From Mesotoga infera (GTDB lineage Bacteria > Thermotogota > Thermotogae > Petrotogales > Kosmotogaceae): 64,000 nucleotides of DNA. The notes under the pieces are model-generated. The model ran no database searches. It had not been told where the DNA came from and saw nothing but the letters and a program-made list of their open reading frames with translations. Below, piece by piece: positions 31,460 to 54,145 of this stretch. Numbering within the stretch: position 1 is the stretch's first letter; every line of letters starts with the position of its first letter. The position numbers and the translations under genes were made by a program. The DNA is taken from contig NZ_LS974202.1 of assembly GCF_900157305.1 (NCBI RefSeq), positions 124,001-188,000 on the forward strand, given 5' to 3'.

Positions 31460-32203
31460 TCAAACGATAGACGAGAGATCGGTCAGGAAGTCTCTGATCT
31501 CGCTGCTGGCCGATTCGAAGAACTCCTGAGGATTCGTGTCTTTCAATATTGAGCCGCCTTTCATGAATAAAACCCTTGTGGCTATATTCCTTGCGAAATC
31601 GATTTCGTGGGTGACTATAACCATTGTTCTCCCTTCAGACGAGAGCCGTTTTATGACTCTCATAACTTCCCCAACGAGCGAGGGATCTAGTGCCGAAGTA
31701 GGTTCGTCCAGCAATACAATATCTGGCTCCATCACAAAGGCCCTGGCAATCCCGACCCGCTGTTGCTGACCACCAGACAGCTGTGAAGGAAAGCTGGCAG
31801 CCTTGTCTTCCAGACCTACCTGAGAGAGTTGCTTCAGGGCGATTTCTCTGGCCTCCCTCCACTTTTTGCCCAGTACTTTTACGAGGGGGAGCGCAACGTT
31901 GTCTATCACTCTCAGGTGACTGACGAGATTGAATCTTTGGAAGACGAATCCCACTTTTGCCCTGAAGAATCTGATAGATTTCCTGTCGCTCTTCACGGTC
32001 GAGCCTTTGAAGAGTATATCGCCGTCGTCGGGAGTGATGAGATGGTTTATGCACCTCAGCAGCGTAGTTTTTCCAGCCCCCGAAGGACCGAGAATTGCGA
32101 TAACATCTCCCTGCTTCACATCGAAGGAGACTCTCTTGAGAACAGAAAGGCTGTCGAAGGATTTTGAAATTCCTCTCACGCTGAGAATTTTATTTTCTGT
32201 CAT
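31460..32203 (-). CDS. Polar amino-acid ABC transporter ATPase (GlnQ/HisP-like)
   Basis: ATPase of about 247 residues that drives amino-acid import. It shows GPSGAGKTT (Walker A), VFQRFNLVSHLRVIDNV (Q loop, typical of the GlnQ/HisP group), LSGGQQQRVGIARAF (signature), IVLLDEPTSALDP (Walker B) and VTHE (switch His). The ATG overlaps the permease TGA (ATGA), showing translational coupling. Last gene of the three-gene operon behind a probable His attenuator, so histidine or a related cationic amino acid is the best guess for the substrate. Confidence 0.94.
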   Translation of the reverse strand: MTENKILSVRGISKSFDSLSVLKRVSFDVKQGDVIAILGPSGAGKTTLLRCINHLITPDDGDILFKGSTVKSDRKSIRFFRAKVGFVFQRFNLVSHLRVIDNVALPLVKVLGKKWREAREIALKQLSQVGLEDKAASFPSQLSGGQQQRVGIARAFVMEPDIVLLDEPTSALDPSLVGEVMRVIKRLSSEGRTMVIVTHEIDFARNIATRVLFMKGGSILKDTNPQEFFESASSEIRDFLTDLSSIV

Positions 32204-32934
32204 GGTATCACCATCTTCCTTTCGAGAGCTCTGCCGACGAATGACAGAGTCGATGTTATAAGCAAGTAGCAAAGGGCTAAAGCGATGTAGGATTCAAAAA
32301 CGGCCAGAGTCTGTGTGCCGACCTGCCTGGCCCTCATTGTGAGATCTCCGAGGGCTATTACTGAAACTAGCGAACTGTCTTTAACGAGGCTAACCAGTTG
32401 CCCGATAAGGGGAGGAATAGATATCTTGAAGGCTTGAGGAAAGATGATCGAGAACATTATCTGTCGCCTGTACAGTCCCATAGCCTCGCCAGCCTCGATT
32501 TCCCCGGCTGGCACCGCTTCGATACCGGCTCTGAATATCTCTCCCACATAAGCGCCCTCAAAGAGAGAGAGAGAAACCACTCCCGCCCAGAAACGGTCGA
32601 TATTTATCGCCGATCCAAAGCCGTAGTAAACGAGCAAAATGATCACAAGGAGCGGCATATTTCTGAAGAACCACACGTACATGGTACCTGCATCTTTTAA
32701 AAACACCGAATGTGAAGTTCTCGCCAGCGACACGACTATTCCGACCACGATAGCGAAACCGAGAGCGATTACACTCAACTCCAGAGTTGTGACAAGCCCA
32801 TCCAGGAACAACTTGTAGTATCTGGGCAGCACTTTCCAGTTGAATGGATATACCTGTGAAACTGAAAAGTAGGAGAACCAAATCAGTCCGGCCACAAACA
32901 ACCCCAGCGTTATACGTGAAACCGCTCTCTTCAT
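32200..32934 (-). CDS. Polar amino-acid ABC transporter permease (HisM/GlnP-like)
   Basis: Inner-membrane permease of 244 residues with about five membrane spans. The family features are GLVTTLELSVIALGFAIVVG near the start, the LLVIILLVYYGFG segment, and the EAA-type loop EIEAGEAMGLYRRQIMFSIIFPQA. There is a single permease gene, so the channel is probably a homodimer. It starts 10 nt after the binding-protein stop. Confidence 0.93.
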   Translation of the reverse strand: MKRAVSRITLGLFVAGLIWFSYFSVSQVYPFNWKVLPRYYKLFLDGLVTTLELSVIALGFAIVVGIVVSLARTSHSVFLKDAGTMYVWFFRNMPLLVIILLVYYGFGSAINIDRFWAGVVSLSLFEGAYVGEIFRAGIEAVPAGEIEAGEAMGLYRRQIMFSIIFPQAFKISIPPLIGQLVSLVKDSSLVSVIALGDLTMRARQVGTQTLAVFESYIALALCYLLITSTLSFVGRALERKMVIP

Positions 32935-32944
32935 CTTTCTAACC

Positions 32945-33712
32945 TCAGAATTCCGGTGCGTATTCCACGAACCAGTACTGTTCGAGTTCTGTTATCTTTC
33001 CAGTTGTCTTCAGCCACTGTATGAATGTGTTCAGCCACTGGAGAGTCTCAAAATCACCTTTTGGAATGGCTACACCCAGATCTTCCATAGATAACAGTTC
33101 ATCGGTGACATCGAGCTGTTCGTACTTCTTGGCTACGAACCTCGCGTAGATCGAATCGAAGATCATAGCATCTGCCCTACCAGAGGCGACCTGAAAACCA
33201 GCTTCATCGGTTGTCTCGAAGGTGAATATCTGTGCTTTGGTCAACAATCTGTTGGCGGCTTCCGCACCAGTCGTGCCGAGCTGAACGGCTATCTTGGTTT
33301 GGCTGGTGTTAATATCTTCCAATTTTGGCGGTGTGGGGAACTTTTTCGTGTTGTAGAGAATTGCCTGTCCCACAGTTAGATAGGGATCACTGAAGTTGAC
33401 TTTCAGGGCCCTTTCAGGGGTGATGGTCATTCCAGACCATATGATATCGAATTTGTTGGACATCAGCGCAGGAATGATACCGTCCCAATTAACTATAACA
33501 AACTCAAGTTTAACACCGAGAATGGAAGCCATTTCCTTGAGTATCTCCACTTCCAGCCCTATTCTGTCTCCATCGGGATCCGTACCGTAGAGGGGCATAT
33601 AACCTGCATCCTGTCCCACCCTTAAAACTCCTCTGCTCCTTATGTCCTCCAGCAAACTTGAGAACGCGAGACTCACAACGACCAGAAAAACTACCAGCAT
33701 AACTTTCCTCAT
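32945..33712 (-). CDS. Amino-acid-binding protein, family 3
   Basis: Exported solute-binding protein of 255 residues. It has a signal peptide (RKVMLVVFLVVVSLAFSS) and the SBP family 3 pattern: RVGQDAGYMPLYG, GLEVEILKEMASILG, DIIWSGMTITPERALKVNFSDPY and IAVQLGTTG. The arginine in TPERA is typical of a carboxylate-binding pocket for amino acids. A GGAGGTG site precedes the ATG and directly follows an intrinsic terminator, so transcription of this gene depends on reading through that terminator. Confidence 0.92.
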   Translation of the reverse strand: MRKVMLVVFLVVVSLAFSSLLEDIRSRGVLRVGQDAGYMPLYGTDPDGDRIGLEVEILKEMASILGVKLEFVIVNWDGIIPALMSNKFDIIWSGMTITPERALKVNFSDPYLTVGQAILYNTKKFPTPPKLEDINTSQTKIAVQLGTTGAEAANRLLTKAQIFTFETTDEAGFQVASGRADAMIFDSIYARFVAKKYEQLDVTDELLSMEDLGVAIPKGDFETLQWLNTFIQWLKTTGKITELEQYWFVEYAPEF

Positions 33713-33727
33713 AACAACACCTCCAAA

Positions 33728-33752
33728 TAAAAAACCGGGCTTAAAGCCCGGT
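33728..33752 (-). terminator. Attenuator terminator in front of the amino-acid ABC operon
   Basis: On the minus strand ACCGGGC (33752-33746), loop TTTAA, GCCCGGT (33740-33734), then TTTTTT. It lies inside the leader, only 16 nt before the binding-protein ATG, so it is not the end of another gene. The 3' arm GCCCGGT recurs exactly at 33806-33800 in the leader peptide frame and could pair with the 5' arm to form an antiterminator. Confidence 0.85.
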
Positions 33753-33777
33753 CGGTTATCTTTTTATGAGAGCACGA

Positions 33778-33870
33778 CTAAACGGTGCCGCCTCCCACTA
33801 CCGGGCGCCACAGTTTATGATGATGAAGAGCGGATGATTCTGTTTTTAAGGTCACAGTGTATTCGTACAT
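33778..33870 (-). CDS. Leader peptide with three consecutive His codons
   Basis: A 30-codon frame with an AAAGGTGA site 4 nt upstream of the ATG. It reads MYEYTVTLKTESSAL, then HHH (CAT-CAT-CAT, 33825-33817), then KLWRPVVGGGTV and TAG. It lies between a good promoter and an intrinsic terminator. Runs of the regulatory amino acid are the hallmark of leader peptides of attenuated amino-acid operons. A ribosome stalled at the His codons would leave the GCCCGGT at 33806-33800 free to pair with the terminator's 5' arm. Function is inferred from layout; the peptide itself needs no activity. Confidence 0.65.
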   Translation of the reverse strand: MYEYTVTLKTESSALHHHKLWRPVVGGGTV

Positions 33871-33903
33871 CGCTTCACCTTTCGTCGTGTTTTCGTTGAA
33901 ACG

Positions 33904-33933
33904 ATACTAACAGCATACGGTATCGTGTGTCAA
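33904..33933 (-). promoter_or_regulatory. Promoter of the amino-acid ABC operon
   Basis: TTGACA (33933-33928), 18-nt spacer, TAGTAT (33909-33904) on the minus strand, starting 22 nt after the uvrB stop. Transcription would start near 33897, about 27 nt before the leader peptide ATG. Confidence 0.7.
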
Positions 33934-33955: not shown

Positions 33956-35950
33956 TTATTTCTTTTTCAGGCGATACATCTCGTCTCTTATTACAGCGGC
34001 ATCTTCGAATCGTAGCTCTCCGGCCGCCCTTATCATTTCTTCGTTGAGGAGCGCCATGTAATCTTCTGTATCGAGGCTCTCTTTTAGTGCGAAGACTCCC
34101 TCTATGTAAGTCGTTCTGGCCTTGTCTTCTCTGTCTTTGTCGAGGTTTTCTCCGGCGAACTCTTCGAAGATGTTTCTGTAAAGGGGTTTGACGATGCTTT
34201 CAGGGGTGATTCCATGCTCCTTGTTGTAAATGAGCTGCTTGAGTCTTCTCCTGTTCGTCTCGTTTATGGCCCTTTGCATCGAACCGGTCATGGTGTCGGC
34301 GTAGAGAACCACCTGGCCGTTTATGTTTCTGGCAGCCCTTCCTATGGTCTGTACCAGGGTGATTTCCGATCTTAGGAAGCCCTCCTTGTCGGCATCCATT
34401 ATCGCCACGAGGGAGACTTCCGGCAGATCCAGTCCCTCTCTGAGGAGATTGACCCCCACCACGACATCGATCGTGCCCTCGCGCAGCTTTCTCAAAACCT
34501 CGACTCTCTCGATGGCGTCGAGCTCAGAGTGGAGATACTCAGACTTTATACCGACTTCGTTCAGATAGTCAGAGAGCATTTCGGCGGCCTTCTTGGTAAG
34601 AACAGTAACGAGCGCTCTTTCGTTCCGTTTCTTCACGGGCTTCATCCTGGCTATGAAATCATCTACCTGGCTTTCGGTAGGATGCACGATCACTTCGGGA
34701 TCGACCAGACCTGTGGGTCTTATCACCTGATCGACGACCTGCCTGGAGAGTCCCAGTTCATACTCGGAAGGAGTGGCAGATACGAAAACTATCTGGCCGA
34801 CCGTCTCGAGGAACTCTTCGAACTTCAGCGGTCTGTTGTCGAAGGCGGCGGGCAGTCTAAAACCATAATCGACGAGATTCTTTTTTCTCGAGAAATCGCC
34901 CCTGTACATGGCCCTGATCTGCGGCACTCCTATGTGGGACTCGTCTATGAAAGTTATGAACTTCTCCCTGTCGAAGTAGTCAAGCAATGTATAGGGTTTT
35001 TCGCCTTTCCTTCTGCCGTCGAAGAAGCGGGCGTAATTCTCGATCCCCGAGCAATAACCAACACTGGAGAGCATCTCCATGTCGTATGTGGTTCGCTGTC
35101 GTAGGCGCTGGGCCTCCAGATATTTTCCCTCACTTTCCAGTTCCTTAACGCGCTCTTCAAGCTCCTCCTCGATACTCCTCATCGCACCGAGGATCTTGTC
35201 CTGGGTCGTCACGAACTCTTTGGCTGGGTATATAGTGACCATATCAAGCTCGTCCACCACCTTGCGGTTGAGCGGTTCGAAAGTCACTATGCGCTCTATC
35301 TCGTCGTCGAAGAAGTAGATCCTTATGCCGAAATCCTCGTAGGGCGGGAAGATTTCGAAGATCTCCCCTTTTACGTGGAAAACCCCTCCGGCCGAGAGGT
35401 CTTCCGATCGGTTGTACTGTATGTTTGCCAGTCTTATGGCCAGTTCATTCCTGTTGAATCTAGAGCCTCTCTGGATGTGTATGTTCATCGTCGCGAAATC
35501 TTTAGGATCTCCGCTGGCGTAGATGGCTGAAACACTTGCCAGAACGACCGTGTCGTTGCGTGTCAGTACCGACTTCAGGGTAGATACGCGCATCCTCTCC
35601 AGCGTTTCGTTTATCTCGGCCTCTTTCTCGATGTACATATCCTTCGAAGGTATATACGATTCAGGCATGTAGTAATCGTAGTAACTTATAAACAGCTCGA
35701 CCTTGTTGGTGGGAAAAAACGTTTTGAACTCCCTGTATAGTTGTGCGACTAGAGTCTTATTAGGAGAGATCACTATCGCAGGACGCTGGAGGTTCGAAAT
35801 TACGTTGGCCATGGTGAAGGTCTTGCCAGAGCCAGTTACCCCCAGAAGGGTTTGAAACCTGTCTCCTCTTGAAAGTCCCTCCGTGAGCTTTTCTATGGCT
35901 TGCGGCTGATCACCCTGAGGTTTATAAGTCGAATCGAGTTCGAACTTCAA
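33956..35950 (-). CDS. uvrB: Excinuclease ABC subunit B
   Basis: Central damage-recognition helicase of nucleotide excision repair, working with UvrA and UvrC. The 664-residue protein has [14 protein letters not shown] (Walker A, ~38-50), the beta-hairpin segment [20 protein letters not shown] that clamps [15 protein letters not shown] (Walker B), helicase motifs [12 protein letters not shown] and QTIGRAARN, and a C-terminal UVR motif ([18 protein letters not shown]) that binds UvrC. The start is a TTG 8 nt after AAGGGGG; a TATAAT lies near 35981. Monocistronic as far as seen. Confidence 0.97.
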
Positions 35951-37029: not shown

Positions 37030-37053
37030 AAAACAGCGGCTTCAAGCCGCTGT
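37030..37053 (-). terminator. Terminator after the tdh-kbl pair
   Basis: On the minus strand ACAGCGGC, loop TTGAA, GCCGCTGT, then TTTTG. It lies 40 nt after the kbl stop and right before the GGGAGG ribosome site of the antiporter gene, so read-through may set antiporter expression. Confidence 0.8.
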
Positions 37054-54122: not shown

Positions 54123-54145
54123 GCCGGCGCAAAGCGCCGGCTTTT
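54123..54145 (+). terminator. Terminator after clpP
   Basis: A perfect 8-bp GC stem GCCGGCGC / GCGCCGGC with loop AAA and TTTT after it. It lies only 22 nt before mutS, so mutS needs read-through or its own promoter, which I do not see. Confidence 0.88.

Follow-up and report, generated by a model that had tools for sequence, protein, structure and literature searches.

The leader analysed here precedes an amino-acid ABC transporter operon within a window of 64,000 nucleotides from Mesotoga infera, and the sequence argues, with a probability of about 85%, that it is a ribosome-mediated transcription attenuator raising the uptake of cationic amino acids, histidine first. The bases of this reading are the anatomy of the leader, its conservation, a pair of mutually exclusive RNA pairings, a switch point located at the His codons and the absence of the His biosynthesis genes looked for, hisG and hisD. 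In particular, four elements of such an attenuator were found, namely a promoter followed by a translatable short ORF with its ribosome binding site, the regulatory codons at the control point, a terminator and an antiterminator dependent on the position of the ribosome.

Anatomy and conservation of the leader

All the elements of the leader lie on the minus strand, where the upstream gene uvrB, transcribed in the same direction, ends at 33956. A sigma-70-type promoter (33904-33933) follows it, composed of TTGACA (33933-33928), an 18-nt spacer and TAGTAT (33909-33904), with 10 of 12 positions matching, and a TTGAC(A)/TA..AT pair was seen at the corresponding site in most of the orthologous leaders. 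The leader peptide has its own ribosome binding site, AAAGGTGA (33875-33882; anti-SD duplex of -8.0 kcal/mol), and its ORF of 30 codons runs from the ATG at 33870 to a TAG (33778-33870), encoding MYEYTVTLKTESSALHHHKLWRPVVGGGTV. The regulatory codons CAT CAT CAT (His3; CATCATCAT, 33817-33825) are followed by a Lys codon, which is Arg in relatives, and, according to a scan of ribosome positions, a stall keeps strand A free up to these codons and not beyond. This strand A (GCCCGGT, 33800-33806), the 5′ strand of the antiterminator, is within the leader ORF and begins exactly 10 nt past the last His codon. Strand B (GGCGGCACC, 33784-33792) is able to pair with the A region (GUGGCGCC) and so to sequester A, according to folds and covariation, and strand C (GTCGTGC, 33772-33778) pairs in folds with B, or with the His-codon region in Kosmotoga-like and other relatives. 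Strand D (ACCGGGC, 33746-33752) is both the 5′ arm of the terminator and the alternative partner of A, while strand E (GCCCGGT, 33740-33734) and a U-tract reaching about 33728 form the 3′ arm and tail of this intrinsic terminator (33728-33740). The binding-protein gene then has its ribosome binding site, GGAGGTG, at 33718-33724. The first-pass annotation had already described the promoter, the leader frame with its own ribosome binding site, the three CAT codons, a terminator about 16 nt before the ATG of the binding-protein gene, and the repeat of GCCCGGT at 33806-33800 with ACCGGGC as its partner, and a base-by-base check found every one of these as it had been placed. The hairpin was rejected as a terminator of uvrB, being located after the promoter and the leader ORF. 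Two further strong terminator-like hairpins occur in the window within 30 nt upstream of a gene, one at 37033 (minus strand) before a Na/Ca-exchanger-like gene and the other at 54141 (plus strand) before a MutS-like gene; both possibly belong to the preceding gene.

The nested pattern GCCCGG-N20-50-CCGGGC-N3-12-GCCCGG had a single occurrence in the 2.97-Mb genome, and its reversed controls had none. Compared with dinucleotide shuffles, the antiterminator helix A:D of the window leader was marginal (p = 0.09), which is unconvincing alone, so that comparative evidence had to decide. The median p-value over the 31 leaders tested, that of the window included, was 0.007, and it is the 30 others that carry the case.

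Relatives of the binding protein were present in 54 out of 103 Thermotogota genomes, the upstream regions of which were read. A total of 33 leaders of the window type were found in 30 genomes of four Thermotogota families, here f1 (Mesotoga-like and Kosmotoga-like), f8 (genus g26), f7 and f2 (genus g9); three of the f2 genomes had two binding-protein genes each, every one with its own leader. The encoded peptides were 22 to 36 codons long in all 33 cases, with a clear ribosome binding site before nearly all of them. Leaders lacking the His run had been proposed as a refutation of the attenuator, and at least one His codon was present at the predicted position in 33 of 33. Moreover, all 68 His codons fell within one 3-codon window, with none elsewhere among the 956 codons of the set. 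This window sits in a block of the form [K/R/H]-H-(H)-x-[K/R], exemplified by LHHHKL, LHHHRL, KKHVK, IKHHAK, KKHHVK, LRHHSR and KHHHFR, and K, R or H made up 139 of the 231 residues in the 7-codon block versus 76 of the 692 outside it. The N-terminal halves of the peptides were unrelated between families, and the rest of the peptide outside the block was likewise not conserved. In the Kosmotoga-like leaders a single His stands beside two Lys codons. Furthermore, close relatives had Lys or Arg following the His run through the unrelated codons AAA, CGT and AGA, a pattern suggestive of selection on the peptide or on the codons read, and not on the RNA alone. As a separate observation, the Kosmotoga-like genomes of genus g4 (G003-G005), whose leaders read KKHVK, were without dapD and without a lysA over the cut-off; the mix of codons may track the set of lost pathways, imperfectly, as genome G002 has both dapD and lysA and yet the block KKHVK.

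Alternative pairings and ribosome position

In every leader, strand A begins about 2 to 16 nt past the last His codon and forms an A:D helix of 7 to 14 bp. A missing alternative pairing was the other outcome named in advance as counting against the attenuator; instead, a helix A:D overlapping the 5′ arm of the terminator was found in 33 of 33 leaders, so that antiterminator and terminator are mutually exclusive. The A/D sequences differed by family, being GCCCGGT/ACCGGGC, TACAGCCCGGTT/AACCGGGCTGTG, GCCCGGTGGA/TCCACCGGGC and GGTGTGGCCTC/GAGGCCACACC. Within families, double-sided changes in A:D were detected at columns 23/99 (AU to GC) and 34/85 (CG to UA), and the A:B helix showed three pairs with double-sided changes, in eight such cells, its covariation score being reached by none of 500 shuffles. 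Since GCCCGG is nearly invariant, the covariation within the f1 and f8 alignment is limited, and the support comes from the differences between families and from A:B.

Minimum free energy folds of the whole transcripts nearly always gave the terminator and cannot discriminate between the states, the informative transcripts being those ending before E. The probability of A:D was computed on such transcripts for a ribosome at each codon, covering 9 nt beyond the codon in the A site. In all 33 leaders this probability was high for a ribosome with the His block in its A site and fell to about zero just past the block, and the switch point was at most three codons from the last His codon in 33 of 33. 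With strand A searched over the whole ORF, it was at most two codons away in 32 leaders, compared to 6.2 expected for a random codon, although these leaders are related by descent and are fairly counted as four or five lineages differing in RNA sequence, rather than as 33 independent trials. Assuming a cover of 6 or 12 nt moved the switch point by one codon. In the same kind of scan, used as a control, E. coli trpL peaked at its Trp codons and hisL over its His run.

In untranslated RNA, before E is made, equilibrium folding favoured A:D in most of the leaders (0.8-1.0, against 0.00 in E. coli), and thus the outcome without translation rests on the kinetics of folding. Furthermore, placing the ribosome on the stop codon re-exposed A (about 0.9) in the Mesotoga-like and some f8 leaders, where termination would need either quick release of the ribosome or the pairing A:B.

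The proposed mechanism is as follows. Transcription would start at the promoter adjoining uvrB, with the leader ORF of 30 codons being translated by a ribosome close behind the RNA polymerase. With plentiful charged tRNA-His (and possibly tRNA-Lys or tRNA-Arg), the ribosome would clear the His block and cover strand A as D emerges or, alternatively, it would be released and A would pair with B. In either event D:E would then form, ending transcription some 16 nt short of the binding-protein gene. Under His shortage, the ribosome is predicted to stall on CAT CAT CAT with its front edge just short of A, in which case A:D would pair, the terminator would be blocked and the transporter operon would be transcribed, readthrough in vivo being a prediction of the model in the same way as the stalling. 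Such a switch would boost the uptake of cationic amino acids, with His in first place, in an organism that has neither hisG nor hisD.

Substrate, sensed signal and rival readings

The operon comprises, on the minus strand, a substrate-binding protein of the polar/cationic amino-acid type (32945-33712, ATG at 33712; TIGR01096 at 137 bits, below the cut-off of 256), a permease of the HEQRo type (32200-32934; TIGR01726 at 86.8 bits, over the curated cut-off of 42.2) and an ATP-binding protein of the GlnQ/HisP type (31460-32203), none of the three matching an NCBIfam equivalog over its cut-off. Among PDB sequences, the binding protein was closest to AncCDT-1, described as an ancestral binder of cationic amino acids that is able to bind arginine (PMC7683729), and to another ABC binding component, 3k4u, and it resembles proteins of the Arg/Lys/ornithine/cystine type. 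Moreover, six Thermotogaceae genomes (genera g32, g33 and g36) had a lysine riboswitch (RF00168, 99-106 bits) at the orthologous transporter, the loci being L043, L045, L046, L048, L050 and L086; most of these genomes were without a lysA over the cut-off, and hisG was seen in none. One transporter with a His-codon leader in some lineages and a lysine riboswitch in others points to a cationic amino-acid substrate. The first-pass annotation had predicted histidine or a His-linked amino acid, of which His as the main starvation signal is retained. Given the block of His plus Lys/Arg, the binding protein of Arg/Lys type and the riboswitches of the orthologues, the substrate is better put as probably a cationic amino acid, and not exclusively His, and the signal as His first, with Lys/Arg perhaps in addition.

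Regarding the pathway, hisG and hisD were absent from all 30 attenuator genomes, that of the window included, and both present in 34 of the 73 others (Fisher p = 4e-7, for genomes that are phylogenetically clustered). Within f2 and f8, the genera keeping the his genes were without a leader-bearing transporter, and those having this transporter were without the his genes.

The attenuator might, alternatively, sense the whole cationic pool (Lys, Arg and His), so that starvation for Lys or Arg would also derepress a transporter mainly importing these two, a reading that we consider a real possibility, clearly below even odds. The form of the block speaks for it, with KKHVK in Kosmotoga-like, KKHHVK in f7 and KHHAK in f8 leaders, and in the position scan the Lys codons preceding His were as permissive as His itself; the riboswitches on the Thermotogaceae orthologues and the closeness of the binding protein to the arginine binder AncCDT-1 agree with it too. 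However, His appears in every leader, while most f2 leaders and several of the Mesotoga-like ones have no Lys ahead of the block, and a Lys or Arg following it came out as no more than borderline permissive (0.4-0.6). In addition, lysA exceeded its cut-off in most attenuator genomes, none of which had hisG or hisD.

The conservation of basic residues as peptide, with K/R kept through different codons, would also fit an arrest of the nascent chain in which the cationic block, inside the exit tunnel, senses Lys, Arg or ornithine in the style of TnaC or SpeFL. Arrest peptides stall with their recognition residues in the tunnel, tens of nucleotides upstream of the A site, whereas the switch point here coincides with the block itself in the A site. 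Besides, the peptide outside the block varies between families, and the sister leaders described below exchange the block for WWW or KK according to the downstream pathway, as codon sensing predicts, and arrest is accordingly rated very unlikely. We give marginally less credit still to the idea that RNA structure produced the His codons as a by-product, the region being a plain terminator or a riboswitch for a metabolite. A terminator is indeed present upstream of the gene, and in folds of the free RNA the codon block pairs with C in Kosmotoga-like, f7, f8 and f2 leaders, but the His codons persist where this pairing was lost (Mesotoga-like) or rewritten (f2), the terminator is inside the transcription unit, downstream of promoter and leader, and RNA sequence and structure vary between families, unlike an aptamer. 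No Rfam family matched the leader at gathering or permissive thresholds; in the window, neither the lysine riboswitch RF00168 nor a T-box riboswitch, rejected on this ground, had a covariance-model match, and the His_leader family RF00514 had none even at E-values up to 10, with the E. coli control scoring 131.6 bits.

Sister leaders and comparison with known systems

A covariance model (R1) of the f1 and f8 leaders led to further leaders in Thermotogota, together with many weak matches at chance level. The his operons of His-prototrophic Thermotogota, Thermotoga-like ones included, had leaders with HHH or HHHH, such as MRIQRRIIKMFASIHHHHRFGPAVSPPGVWR (loci L108-L127, the Thermotoga-like being L123 and L120). 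The genes dapD, dapA and asd had Lys-rich leaders, for instance one ending in EMKNAKKCNRPVITLGGVHVL, with the block KK in dapD (L128-L134, L139 and L141 being loci with antiterminators), and the dapD leaders share with the His transporter leader the scaffold CGCCCGGT...ACCGGGC. Moreover, trpB2 (TIGR01415) had WWW leaders in most of the Thermotogota loci examined, among them one in the genome of Mesotoga infera itself, outside the window (L206, C1:2801900-2803200), with the peptide MTNGLSSYILNKFWWWVSPFDGG and an antiterminator of 15 bp. The switch point was at the W codons for trpB2 (22 usable leaders), at the K codons for dapD, dapA and asd (8) and at the H codons for the his operons (9), in a scan less strict than that of the transporter leaders, as the search for A began after the regulatory codon and not over the whole ORF. 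In several f2 his-operon leaders, a simple search found no usable antiterminator. A further leader, MIINSLYLKNNNHVHHNLVAR, with the GCCCGG/CCGGGC pairing, was observed at L137 (G001:C80:6900-8174), upstream of a gene at the end of its contig.

That the codons of these sister systems fit the downstream pathway is strong indirect evidence that the transporter leader reads His. A broader picture is moderately probable, in which attenuation is phylum-wide and possibly ancient, with one kind of RNA scaffold and exchangeable codons (His for his, Trp for trpB2, Lys for dapD, dapA and asd), the His version now controlling the transporter where His biosynthesis was lost and the Thermotogaceae using a lysine riboswitch at the corresponding site. 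That a His attenuator may have relocated to the transporter from a his operon is in itself an attractive idea, convergence being the alternative. Attenuation on biosynthetic genes and a transporter across a deep-branching, largely thermophilic phylum would make its age and repeated origin testable, and the leader codons would give a clue to transporter substrates that is readable from sequence. Furthermore, these orthologous operons would offer a clear case in which the loss of biosynthetic pathways was accompanied by the exchange of a codon-reading sensor for a metabolite riboswitch.

The closest parallel is hisL of E. coli and Salmonella (RF00514), alike in its short ORF with a His run, its intrinsic terminator, its alternative pairing set by position and its behaviour in the scan. 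It has seven His codons and controls hisG, whereas the window leader has three and controls a transporter; unlike hisL, leaders of the window type have strand A inside the ORF, a free RNA favouring the antiterminator and conserved Lys/Arg neighbours. The geometry of the stall codons relative to the antiterminator is shared with trpL (RF00513), of which the Thermotogota trpB2 leaders would be the functional analogue, although RF00513 gave no match, and the free RNA of E. coli trpL is without the antiterminator (P = 0.00) while the Thermotogota leaders mostly favour it when untranslated. The lysine riboswitch of Thermotogaceae is alike in serving the orthologous gene from a matching position with a terminator at its end, but it senses the metabolite directly through an aptamer, without a leader ORF.

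Outside Proteobacteria, His leader peptides have been described on hisS/hisZ in Bacilli (Naville & Gautheret 2010, PMC2965389) and on the his operons of the B. cereus group, Peptostreptococcaceae and Erysipelotrichales (PMC9413887), and leader-peptide attenuation has been reported as confined to Proteobacteria, Actinobacteria and a few Firmicutes (PMC2965389, PMC9413887). No description of it in Thermotogota or Thermotoga was found in the open-access papers searched, an older subscription paper being possible. The Firmicutes leaders resemble that of the window as non-Proteobacterial attenuation, in their His codons just before alternative hairpins and in the documented swaps of sensor at orthologous genes, but they serve hisS/hisZ or His biosynthesis, whereas the window-type leader would serve an ABC transporter for cationic amino acids in Thermotogota auxotrophic for His. 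The mechanism is known, while its use in Thermotogota and on a cationic amino-acid transporter appears to be new in the open-access papers searched.
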